From Sphaerisporangium perillae (GTDB lineage: Bacteria > Actinomycetota > Actinomycetes > Streptosporangiales > Streptosporangiaceae): 64,000 bases of DNA. The position numbers and the translations under genes are program-made. Numbering within the stretch: position 1 is the stretch's first letter; every line of letters starts with the position of its first letter. The notes under the pieces were generated by a model. It did not search any database. It was given only the letters and a program-made list of their open reading frames with translations, and had not been told where the DNA came from. This document shows positions 33,230-38,736 of this stretch, piece after piece. Location of the stretch: the NCBI RefSeq assembly GCF_023276435.1, contig NZ_JALLPO010000019.1:62001-126000 (forward strand), written 5' to 3'.

Positions 33230-34612
33230 ATGAGTCTGGCCGATCCCAGCGCCAAATCTGACATATTCGCACACCCCTTTGTGGAGAGTGACCTTCCTGG
33301 TCCGCTTTCGGCGGAACTGCTCGACCGGCAGGCCCTCCGGGAGTCGAACGCGCGCACCTACCCGCGCCGTCTCCCCATCGCCATCGCCGAGGCCTCCGGC
33401 AGCTTCCTGCGCGACCCGGACGGCAACATCTTCATCGACTTCCTGACCGGCGCGGGCGTGCTGTCACTCGGGCACAACCACCCCGAACTGGTGCGGGCCG
33501 TCACGGCGCAACTGAACCGGCTCACCCATGGCCTCGACTTCCCGACGCCCGCCAAGGACGCCTTCACCGAGGCACAACTGTCCATGCTCCCGGCGGGGTT
33601 GCGCGACCGGATGAAAGTCCATTTCTGCGGGCCCACGGGAGGTGACGCCGTCGACGCCGCGATCAAACTGTGCAAGATCGCCACAGGACGCGGGGACGTC
33701 GTGGCCTTCCAGGGCGGCTTTCACGGCAGCGGCCACGCGGCGATGGCCCTCAGCGGCCTTGTGCGGCAGAAGCAGCCGGTGGTCAACGGCGTACCGGGGG
33801 TCCACTTCTTCCCTTACTCCTATTGCGCGCGCTGCCCGCTCGGCCTGGTGCCGAGCACGTGCGACACCAACTGCGCGGGCCAGCTCGAGCGGGCACTGCG
33901 CGACGGGAACGGCGGCGTCCCGCTGCCGGCCGCGGTCATCCTGGAGATGGTGCAGGGCGAGGGAGGCGTCATCCCCGCGCGCCGCGCGTTCGTGCGGCGG
34001 GTGCGCGAACTCACCCGCGAGCTTGACATCCCTCTGATCGTGGACGAGGTGCAGACCGGCTGCGGGCGCACGGGCACGTGGTTCGCCTTCGAACGCTATG
34101 GCATCGAACCCGACGTGATCGTCGCGTCCAAGGCCCTGAGCGGCATCGGCCTGCCCGTCGCGATCATCCTCTACGACCGGCGGCTGGACGTGTGGGCGCC
34201 CGGCGCGCACATCGGGACATTCCGCGGCAACCAGCTCGCCTTCGCCGCCGGAGCGGAGGCCGTGCGGATCATCCGGCGTGACGACGTGCTCGGCAACGTC
34301 CACCGGCGCGGCGAGCAGATCGCCGAGCGGCTGGCGCCCCTGTCGGGCAACCCCTGGGTGCGGGAGGTGCGCGGCGTCGGCCTGATGTGGGGCGTGGAGC
34401 TCGCCGATCCCCGCGATGGCGGCCCGGCCACCGAGCCGGCGTACCGCGTCCAGGGCGCCGCGCTGCGGCGGGGGCTGGTCATCGAGGTCGGCGGGCGTGC
34501 CGACTGCGTCGTGCGGATCCTGCCGCCGCTGAACGTGACCGCCGACGTCGTCGAGACCGCGTGCTCCATCCTCGTCGAGGCCATCAACGCGTGCTGCCCG
34601 GTGGCGGCCTGA
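33230..34612 (+). CDS. Class III aminotransferase, diaminobutyrate--2-oxoglutarate transaminase type
   Basis: 460 residues, the family's usual length. The N-terminal [16 protein letters not shown] and [14 protein letters not shown] [18 protein letters not shown] are typical of the EctB/DABA group. PLP-site residues: [13 protein letters not shown] (135-147), [12 protein letters not shown] with D272, and the Schiff-base lysine K301 in [12 protein letters not shown] Cys-rich insert ([19 protein letters not shown]199/C202/C211/C215) is also characteristic. It makes L-2,4-diaminobutyrate from aspartate semialdehyde and glutamate. No ectoine genes follow; instead a Pls-like synthetase begins 44 bases downstream, which implies that diaminobutyrate is its substrate. 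Confidence 0.9.
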
Positions 34613-34656
34613 GGTTCGCGACGCCACGGGGACCCGCGGGGGTTGATGGAGGCAGC

Positions 34657-37600: not shown

Positions 37601-38736
37601 CGCAACGCGCGATCGCCCGGACCACCAACGCGCAGGTCTTCACGCACCTCTTCGGGGACAGCTCCTGGATCGTGCACTACCTGCGCTGCCTGGGATACGA
37701 CCTGTCGAAGATCGAGCAGACCGGCTCCAACTTCGGCCTGCAGCACAAACACGAATCGCCGTACCTGGCCACGATCGGCAGCGGCACGATGGTGTCGGAC
37801 GGGCTGTCGATCGTGAACGCGGACTTCTCCAGCGGCTCGTTCCGCGTGTCCCGCGCGTCGATCGGGGCGCGCACCTTCGTCGGCAACGACATCGCCTACC
37901 CCGCCCAGAGCCGGGCCGGGAACAACTGCCTCCTCGCGACCAAGGTCATGATCCCCCTCGACGGGGAGCCACGACATGACATCGGACTGCTGGGCTCGCC
38001 CTGCTTCGAGATCCCGCGCTCGGTCCAGCGCGACAGCCGGTTCGACCACCTGAAGACCGGCGAGGAGTTCCGTCGCCGCCTGGCGGCCAAGAACCGGCAC
38101 AACACCGTGACCATCGCGCTGCACCTGTTCACCCGGTGGCTGCACCTCTTCGGCGTCATGCTGCTCGCCATCGTCGCCGCCGGCCTGTACGACACGTTCG
38201 GGCCGCCGGTCATCGCCGCCGACATCGTCTGCACCCTGCTGTTCACCATCGTGTACTTCCTGGTGGTCGAGCGCCTGGCCACGGGCTTCCAGGCGCTGCG
38301 GCCGCGCTTCTGCTCGATCTACCAGACTTACTACTGGTGGCACGAGCGCATGTGGAAGCTCACCAACCCGCTCTACCTCGACCTGCTCAACGGCACGCCG
38401 TACAAGAACGCGGCCTGGCGGCTGGCCGGGGTGCGGCTCGGGCGCAGGGTGTTCGACGACGGCTGCCACATACCGGAACGGACCCTGGTCACCATCGGCG
38501 ACGACTGCACGCTGGCGCAGAAGAGCCTGATCCAGGCCCACTCGCTGGAGGACGGGACGTTCAAGTCCGACCACATCACGATCGGCTCCGGCTGCACCGT
38601 CGGGACCAACGCCCTGGTCCACTACGGGGTCCGCATGGGCGACGGCGCGCTCCTGGACCCCGACTCCTTCCTGATGAAGGGCGAGGAGGTCGCCCCGCAC
38701 GCCCACTGGCGCGGCAACCCGGCCATCCAGATCTAA
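34657..38736 (+). CDS. Pls/PosA-type single-module NRPS (poly(amino acid) synthetase)
   Basis: 1359 residues. Adenylation domain (about 45-535): YTSGSTGRPKG (199-209), FDFSVEEIW (244-252), VYGPTEAT (332-339), YRTGDL (421-426), NKADRK with K532 (531-536). Carrier domain (about 555-630): phosphopantetheine site LGASS, S591. Six membrane segments then alternate with soluble left-handed beta-helix-like domains (for example IGAGTVIRKDAFF, VGEGAFVGEQTVID, IGSGTMVSDG, IGSGCTVGTNALVHYG). There is no condensation or thioesterase domain. This is the architecture of epsilon-poly-L-lysine synthetase (about 1320 residues), in which the tandem C-terminal domains form the polymer at the membrane. GGAGG lies four bases before ATG 34657. 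With a diaminobutyrate aminotransferase upstream, poly(diaminobutyrate) is the likely product. Confidence 0.93.
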   Translation: MTRQADVQDVQRADPRPGKAPAGHVLIGASGTYPARRRDGERLHHLFEERCDRLRSAGRQGRTAVDAGEVTLTYDQLDARANQLARYLVKRGARPGERIALVFDRAVYSYIGMLAVLKINAAYVPLDAGFPADRLAYIVRDAGVRMVLSLSHLRDRIEHVDAAILCVDEVEALVAAEDDRRLTVTERGEPVDELCYIVYTSGSTGRPKGVAIEHAGICNFVRVAVDAYQLTPDDRVYQGMTIAFDFSVEEIWVPLLAGATLVPRPPGVTLLGHDLAEFLLARRVTALCCVPTLLATLEEDLPDLRFLLVSGEACPADLVRRWHRPGRRFLNVYGPTEATVTATWAVLRPGGPVTLGVPLPTYAVVILDSAEARALPPGELGEIGIAGIGLARGYVNRDDLTERAFIPDFLGIPDNPSGRIYRTGDLGRVNGDGEIEYHGRIDTQVQIHGYRVELAEIESVLLQVPGITQAVVDTYEPEPGVVELVAYYSAREDAPEIDQERIYRELRGRLPGYMIPAYLEPLPRIPMLLSNKADRKNLPPPKGPRGLSTAHTYVPPSTAAESVLADVLAGVVGVEQVSVDSHFFDELGASSLLMTRFCARVRERADLPPVSIKDVYLHPTVRSLASALAEAAPAPEPQAPKVRAARASTAEYVLCAVLQLLLFLGYSCLGAVLLTGCYHWVAGATGPAEIYGRSVACGAAIFATLCAVPIVAKWALVGRWRPGEIRVWSLAYVRFWAVKTLVRSCPLVLFIGSPLYVLYLRALGARIGPGVLILSKHVPVCTDLLTIGAGTVIRKDAFFTCYRARAGVIETGPVTVGEGAFVGEQTVIDIGAALGDRAQLGHSSSLQSSQRVPDGERWHGSPAQPATTDYLTLEPARCGTWRRARFGALQLLTTLLVYIPLGIGGLYWLTTTIPALAGLADPAGSRDLTAWPPYRDALVASLALYFGALAAGLAFVATVPRLLHLALKPDRVHPLYGFHYWAQRAIARTTNAQVFTHLFGDSSWIVHYLRCLGYDLSKIEQTGSNFGLQHKHESPYLATIGSGTMVSDGLSIVNADFSSGSFRVSRASIGARTFVGNDIAYPAQSRAGNNCLLATKVMIPLDGEPRHDIGLLGSPCFEIPRSVQRDSRFDHLKTGEEFRRRLAAKNRHNTVTIALHLFTRWLHLFGVMLLAIVAAGLYDTFGPPVIAADIVCTLLFTIVYFLVVERLATGFQALRPRFCSIYQTYYWWHERMWKLTNPLYLDLLNGTPYKNAAWRLAGVRLGRRVFDDGCHIPERTLVTIGDDCTLAQKSLIQAHSLEDGTFKSDHITIGSGCTVGTNALVHYGVRMGDGALLDPDSFLMKGEEVAPHAHWRGNPAIQI

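Follow-up and report, generated by a model that had tools for sequence, protein, structure and literature searches.

Poly-2,4-diaminobutyrate (poly-Dab) is known in two stereochemical forms. The γ-poly-L-Dab synthetase PldA of Streptomyces celluloflavus is listed with a Dab transaminase gene (dat) and an aspartate kinase gene (ask) (PMC8117764). In Streptoalloteichus hindustanus, poly-D-Dab is reportedly made by the synthetase PddA with the racemase PddB, the transaminase PddC and the aspartate kinase PddD (pddABCD), and PddB homologs are reported next to PddA homologs (PMC8225329). The accessions given in PMC8117764 are WP_110952768 for PldA, WP_083959783 for PddA and EXU85975 for a PDAP synthetase. 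The ε-poly-L-lysine synthetase Pls (PDB 7wew) and the δ-poly-L-ornithine synthetase PosA (PMC10522769; PDB 8g95–8g98) are related enzymes. Here, we analyzed a 64,000-nucleotide stretch of the Sphaerisporangium perillae genome (contig NZ_JALLPO010000019.1, positions 62,001–126,000; hereafter, the window), in which a Dab transaminase gene is followed by a gene for a single-module synthetase of the Pls/PosA family. Judging from its sequence features, the pair probably constitutes a compact pathway for γ-poly-L-Dab. An earlier note on the window had presented poly-Dab as a polymer distinct from poly-lysine; the polymer class and its operon logic are already known, as poly-L-Dab, poly-D-Dab, their synthetases and the dat and ask neighbors are published (PMC8117764, PMC8225329). 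What is new is that the window synthetase is in a lineage separate from the poly-D-Dab-type loci. Predicted poly-Dab synthesis thereby gains a lineage in which our searches of the openly licensed literature found no characterized member.

The locus resembles that of PldA in the adenylation–carrier–six-helix architecture of the synthetase, the adjacent Dab transaminase and the short-diamino-acid code class, but it has no nearby ask gene and the order is dat–synthetase. It shares the Pls-type synthetase and the Dab transaminase with pddABCD, but lacks both a PddB-like racemase and a nearby aspartate kinase. Both open reading frames (ORFs) are on the forward strand, 44 bases apart, and encode 460 and 1359 residues, respectively (Table 1). 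The synthetase starts with the ATG at 34657, before which stands GGAGGCAGC. The ORF coordinates and the TIGR00709 match thus confirm the gene order given in the earlier note, and the transaminase is the only gene in the source genome (9.3 Mb, 120 contigs) that passes the TIGR00709 cut-off. Five same-genus genomes were searched, of which three carry a window-type synthetase, and the transaminase lies directly upstream of it in all three. This conservation, together with the transaminase counts across code classes given below, rules out a chance adjacency of the pair. A near-repeat of about 20 bases (beginning GCACGTCGGCA), seen by eye, occupies 33170–33217, directly upstream of the transaminase start.

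Table 1. Positions of the features of the locus in the window
Feature	Position	Strand	Evidence
LuxR-family (GerE) regulator with AAA/NB-ARC-type ATPase domain, transcribed away from the transaminase	30072–32498	-	Pfam GerE, 60.9 bits
Diaminobutyrate–2-oxoglutarate transaminase (class III aminotransferase)	33230–34612	+	TIGR00709, 423.3 bits (cut-off 401.6)
Pls/PosA-family single-module synthetase, whole gene	34657–38736	+	TIGR02353, 741.2 bits (cut-off 423.1)
Adenylation domain, residues 57–538	34825–36270	+	Pfam AMP-binding, 267 bits; TIGR01733, 409.5 bits (cut-off 317.4); core motifs readable in alignment
Nine of ten code residues (D245, F246, E249, C288, L308, S310, V332, V340, T341)	35389–35679	+	Alignment
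Tenth code residue (K532)	36250–36252	+	Alignment
Peptidyl carrier domain, residues 563–628	36343–36540	+	Pfam PP-binding, 31.6 bits
Terminal polymerization domain, residues 655–1356	36619–38724	+	TIGR02353; AlphaFold2 model me4d1d3b63835

The synthetase contains one adenylation and one carrier domain, and a Pfam scan of the whole protein detected AMP-binding and PP-binding but no condensation or thioesterase domain. The candidate phosphopantetheine serine of the carrier domain, Ser591 (36427–36429), is invariant in all eight aligned proteins. The TIGR02353 (Pls/PosA) match covers the region downstream of the carrier domain, for which an AlphaFold2 model of residues 640–1359, built on 26 aligned sequences (25 of them relatives), has a mean predicted local distance difference test score of 90.4 and a predicted template modeling score of 0.90. 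The modeled domain comprises three repeats, each made up of two paired long helices, short helices and a β-helix, and the long helices span residues 649–682, 687–717, 880–912, 932–964, 1135–1181 and 1184–1208. Hydropathy analysis revealed seven peaks in this region, six of which coincide with the modeled helices, with one extra at residues 745–763. According to the model, the terminal domain is an assembly of three β-helix units and six predicted membrane helices, and the PosA paper describes the same three-fold arrangement from its own models (PMC10522769). The best PDB matches of the model in Foldseek are hexapeptide (β-helix) acetyltransferases, each aligned over part of it. The whole architecture is like that of Pls, and TIGR02353, Pfam and the model agree with the earlier description of an adenylation domain, a carrier, six helices and tandem β-helices that lacks condensation and thioesterase domains. 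The adenylation domain itself has LgrA and tyrocidine synthetase as its best PDB matches. The ordinary nonribosomal peptide synthetase (NRPS) adenylation domain that these matches might indicate is ruled out by the terminal domain and the code, which point to the Pls family.

The ten code positions, which we take to be located correctly by the motifs of PheA, read DFECLSVVTK in the window synthetase. The extraction is borne out by two internal checks. A second Pls-family synthetase of the source genome (G000:C49:51863–55678, L002; best PDB match 7wew, 620.8 bits), which is 28–29% identical to the window synthetase, reads DAESIGTVVK with Ala at position 2, and four other relatives (L195 and L197–L199) read DGESVSVVNK, one letter off the published poly-β-lysine code DGESISVVNK. 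Two genomes (G318 and G277) carry one of these DGESVSVVNK synthetases in addition to a Dab-type synthetase. According to PMC10522769, lysine enzymes have Ala at position 2, synthetases for Dab or 2,3-diaminopropionate (Dap) have Phe there, and Glu at position 3 is conserved. Asp245 and Glu249 of the window synthetase occupy positions 1 and 3, as expected of Pls/PosA synthetases and as in PosA, whose published code is nevertheless different (DMEHNGTVSK) and whose substrate is ornithine (PMC10522769). Phe246 occupies position 2, as expected of the poly-Dab synthetases PldA and PddA. The reported coproduction of poly-L-Dab and ε-polylysine in Streptomyces (PMC8117764) would provide a precedent for a Dab-type and a lysine-type synthetase in one genome.

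The relation between code class and neighboring transaminase provides a genomic test for substrate assignment in the Pls/PosA family. We classed 107 synthetases, including that of the window, into 47 of S type (Ser at code position 6; DFEC at the start in 43), 17 DFEA.G, 20 DFEY.G, 9 DAES and 14 others or unread. Apart from the window, the loci were picked by synthetase similarity and not by transaminase content, and the 80 named loci are the best-scoring matches listed rather than a census. The entry L001 (the window itself), L003–L008, L034 and L035 (ordinary NRPS adenylation matches only), and a duplicate window row were left out before code reading. Neighbors were counted within 6 kb where the flank exists; many loci carry only about 1.3–1.5 kb of flank, and farther neighbors would be missed there. 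Of the 47 S-type synthetases, 34 have a Dab transaminase as a neighbor (33 of 46 if the window is excluded), on the same strand in 33 of the 34 cases, while none is beside any of the 17 DFEA.G, 20 DFEY.G and 9 DAES synthetases (0/46 together). The 14 others include one such case, L031, which is partial and whose code is unread. When at least 1.3 kb of flank is present on both sides, the transaminase is found in 32 of 42 S-type loci versus 0/17 DFEA.G, 0/18 DFEY.G, 0/4 DAES and 0/9 others. A second sample of 32 synthetases, in which some genomes may recur from the first and from which twelve short loci were left out (most of them replaced by longer stretches of the same places), gave 12/14 for S type versus 0/18 for the others.

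Aspartate kinase, the first enzyme of the Dab precursor route, is beside 14 of the 47 S-type synthetases (family confirmed for one representative). The neighboring transaminases of this class belong to two families, window-like in 19 loci and EctB-like in 15, with at least five switches on the tree. Furthermore, in Pseudonocardia sp. N23 (L042:7632–13907), the synthetase and a Dab transaminase are contained in one 2092-codon open frame that includes a proline-rich linker. The Dab transaminase of an Amycolatopsis locus (L088:11810–13981) is split across two frames, reflecting sequencing error or decay.

To place the window synthetase relative to the enzymes of poly-D-Dab, we located the PddA lineage by its published operon signature, not by the sequence of PddA itself. 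The query was a Streptomyces plasmid synthetase (P0003) from a synthetase–dat–ask operon (L015, which has an annotated sister operon in L142), and 38 of the 150 genomes searched in the family of Actinokineospora terrae had matches at E 1e-190. A DapF-like gene lies directly 3′ of the synthetase in 3 of 30 retrieved loci (L162–L164, with longer versions L192–L194; family confirmed for the two scanned), and L193 and L194 also carry the transaminase and the aspartate kinase, that is, the pddABCD signature. The synthetases of L192–L194 read DFECLSCVSK, and four racemase-free operons with a transaminase (L015, L025, L190 and L191) group with them. Compared with six representatives of the window lineage, this L192–L194-type lineage is 24–28% identical in the terminal domain and 48–55% in the adenylation domain. 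In a terminal-domain tree of 43 representatives, it stands beside the DFEY enzymes and is separated by a long branch from the clade of the window. A constraint that unites all S-code rows in one clade lowers the log-likelihood for the terminal domain by 519 units and is rejected by the approximately unbiased test (p-AU, 1.3e-39), and one clade is likewise rejected for the adenylation domain without the code columns (p-AU, 1.1e-5). The representatives (43 for the terminal and 44 for the adenylation domain) were hand-picked, and the groups for the clade tests were chosen once the outcome of a first tree of 96 rows had been seen, from which 11 partial synthetases were left out. On these trees, the window synthetase is in a lineage separate from the loci with the poly-D-Dab operon signature. 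The phylogenetic comparison proposed in the earlier note, run here with operon-signature loci, thus did not group the window with them.

We considered whether one Dab adenylation domain had moved from one lineage to the other and rejected this, as the adenylation tree without code columns does not accept a single clade; the groups were named post hoc, and an ancestral code with losses is equally possible. Accordingly, the Dab code in the two lineages may be convergent or ancestral, gain and loss being inseparable in these trees. The order synthetase–dat–ask is undiagnostic, because it is present in both lineages (L015, L142 and L190 in the other; L044, L045 and L088 in that of the window). The identities of PldA and PddA to coryneform Pls are given as 33% and 31%, respectively (PMC8117764). 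Our mean identities to 16 lysine-type enzymes, obtained with programs and Pls sequences that differ from those of the published figures, are 32.3–33.2% for racemase-free and 30.9–32.1% for racemase-linked enzymes of the other lineage and 28.1–30.0% for 15 members of the window lineage; this comparison points weakly, and only indirectly, to PldA in the other lineage. On balance, there is about an even chance that the window synthetase belongs to a second lineage of enzymes that make Dab homopolymers, one that branches deeply and is present in actinobacteria and some proteobacteria, which would have reached or kept the Dab pocket and the transaminase partnership separately from the PldA/PddA lineage. 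Its terminal polymerase, about a quarter identical, may confer a different polymer length or release chemistry.

Two natural chimeras, L021 (G036) and L022 (G126, partial), carry a lysine-type core with the code DAESIGTVVK on a carrier and terminal domain of the window lineage. Their adenylation residues 60–540 are 57–58% identical to the Pls homolog of the source genome and 42% to the window synthetase. The windowed identity switches near residue 420 of the window protein, beyond which identity to the window lineage is 65–68% in the carrier and 53–54% in the terminal domain. Evolution thus appears to have placed a lysine-type core on a polymerase of the window lineage, which suggests that this terminal domain polymerizes diamino acids. 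A second polymerase scaffold with natural exchange of the adenylation core offers a way to ask what sets chain length in antimicrobial and cell-penetrating polymers.

From the domains, the code, the gene order, the genomic association and the lineage, we infer the following route, in which the substrate, stereochemistry, linkage, polymer length, export and biological role of the product are all predictions. The transaminase would form L-Dab from aspartate semialdehyde, supplied by the ordinary aspartate pathway, and glutamate. The adenylation domain would activate L-Dab as the adenylate and load it onto the carrier domain; by analogy with PosA, Asp245 would hold the α-amine and Glu249 the γ-amine, while Phe246 would shorten the pocket. 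The membrane-bound terminal domain would join the Dab units iteratively through the γ-amine, and the resulting cationic isopeptide would be released, probably outside the cell, as an antimicrobial. The Dab monomer and cationic polymer of the earlier note are supported by the code with its Phe at position 2, the transaminase association and the Pls/PosA architecture, with the L form suggested by a single DapF; the product itself is still a predicted one.

The stereochemistry bears on one alternative, in which a racemase encoded elsewhere would supply D-Dab and the product would be either poly-D-Dab or mixed. Poly-D-Dab is a known actinobacterial product (PMC8225329), but no PddB-like Dab racemase is beside the window synthetase, and the source genome contains only one DapF, on another contig. 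A single DapF was also found in 16 genomes with window-lineage synthetases and in G067, a genome with the other Dab lineage; the remaining one of the 18 records is a plasmid without DapF. The DapF model also recognizes PddB-like proteins, two of which reached 128 and 130 bits (cut-off 114.65), and such racemases should therefore have appeared in the genome searches. Code position 9 is Thr in the window, as in the racemase-free L015, L190 and L191, versus Ser in three racemase-linked enzymes; however, it is not diagnostic, and the code is an imperfect guide to which of the two forms is made, because Ser is also present in the racemase-free same-genus relative L019. Taken together, a D-containing polymer is improbable and L-Dab is favored in the product, mainly by the single DapF.

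Another short diamino acid, Dap, might instead be the substrate, with the transaminase serving some other purpose. Phe at position 2 is assigned to Dap as well as Dab synthetases and hence is not specific for Dab, and a published tree found the Dap, Dab and β-lysine enzymes difficult to separate (PMC10522769). Nevertheless, a Pfam scan of 20 further ORFs of the window revealed no gene for Dap synthesis, the S-type code accompanies Dab transaminases as counted above, and the loci with the poly-D-Dab signature share DFECLS with the window, so that a Dap polymer has little likelihood. A changed role of the terminal domain, by which the enzyme would make a short Dab oligomer or transfer Dab to another acceptor, is unlikely. 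The terminal domain shares only 22–29% identity with its counterparts in the other lineages compared (46% with the sister rhizobial class), and the literature searched contains no product of the window lineage; on the other side, its TIGR02353 score is far above the cut-off, its modeled fold fits the described three-fold arrangement, and the lysine-type cores joined to it in L021 and L022 point to a polymerase accepting diamino acids. Several observations also weigh against the γ-poly-L-Dab pathway itself. Besides the shared Phe, the synthetase lacks a neighboring transaminase in 10 of the 42 well-flanked S-type loci, among them the nearest named relatives, L036, L037 and L084 (Actinomadura). 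When kinship is allowed for, nine independent pairs differ in the presence of the transaminase, and the code agrees in 4–5, opposes in none and is the same in the rest (sign test, median p 0.06); the link between code and transaminase is then suggestive but not conclusive. No aspartate kinase lies within 6 kb of the window synthetase and the genome has one full copy, on another contig, so that precursor supply would depend on primary metabolism. Finally, the loci with the poly-D-Dab operon signature, L192–L194, belong to the other lineage.

A divergent LuxR-type gene is upstream of the pair not only in the window but also in all three same-genus relatives with the synthetase, about 3 kb off in one of them, and may encode a regulator of the pathway. 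A hydrolase gene (38851–40620) and a helix-turn-helix gene downstream of the synthetase were rejected as pathway genes, as neither was found at E 1e-10 in the loci of the three relatives, one of which ends about 3 kb past the synthetase.

The other code classes have neighborhoods of their own. DFEA.G is a sister class of 17 alphaproteobacterial loci with no Dab transaminase (L011, L016, L055–L060, L062, L063, L065, L074, L077, L078, L082, L098 and L103). Of the 17, 15 share a conserved gene downstream, the representative of which is similar to phosphopantetheinyl transferases, and a GNAT acetyltransferase is annotated in L011 and L016. The DFEY.G class comprises 20 loci (L014, L026–L030, L087, L089, L093–L095, L097, L100–L102, L106, L107, L109, L111 and L114). 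In L014, BPL-N-type and heparan-glucosaminide acetyltransferase-like neighbors are annotated, and some other loci of the class contain genes related to these; four representatives of its conserved neighbors, scanned for Dap synthesis, gave no NCBIfam match at 1e-8. Two Pseudonocardia plasmids (L012:4622–9130 and L013:6043–10293) encode Pls-family proteins whose adenylation core is degenerate (YSFDTDGRPHG versus YTSGSTGRPKG in the window). The L012 protein has three carrier domains, and a TauD-type dioxygenase follows the proteins of both plasmids.

Elsewhere in the window, a family 46 glycoside hydrolase of the chitosanase type is encoded at 27978–28838 (358 bits) and is also present in the locus of one relative (L121). 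A heme peroxidase, matched in two stretches, adjoins an ORF with a Fur-family regulator domain at 1198–5095.

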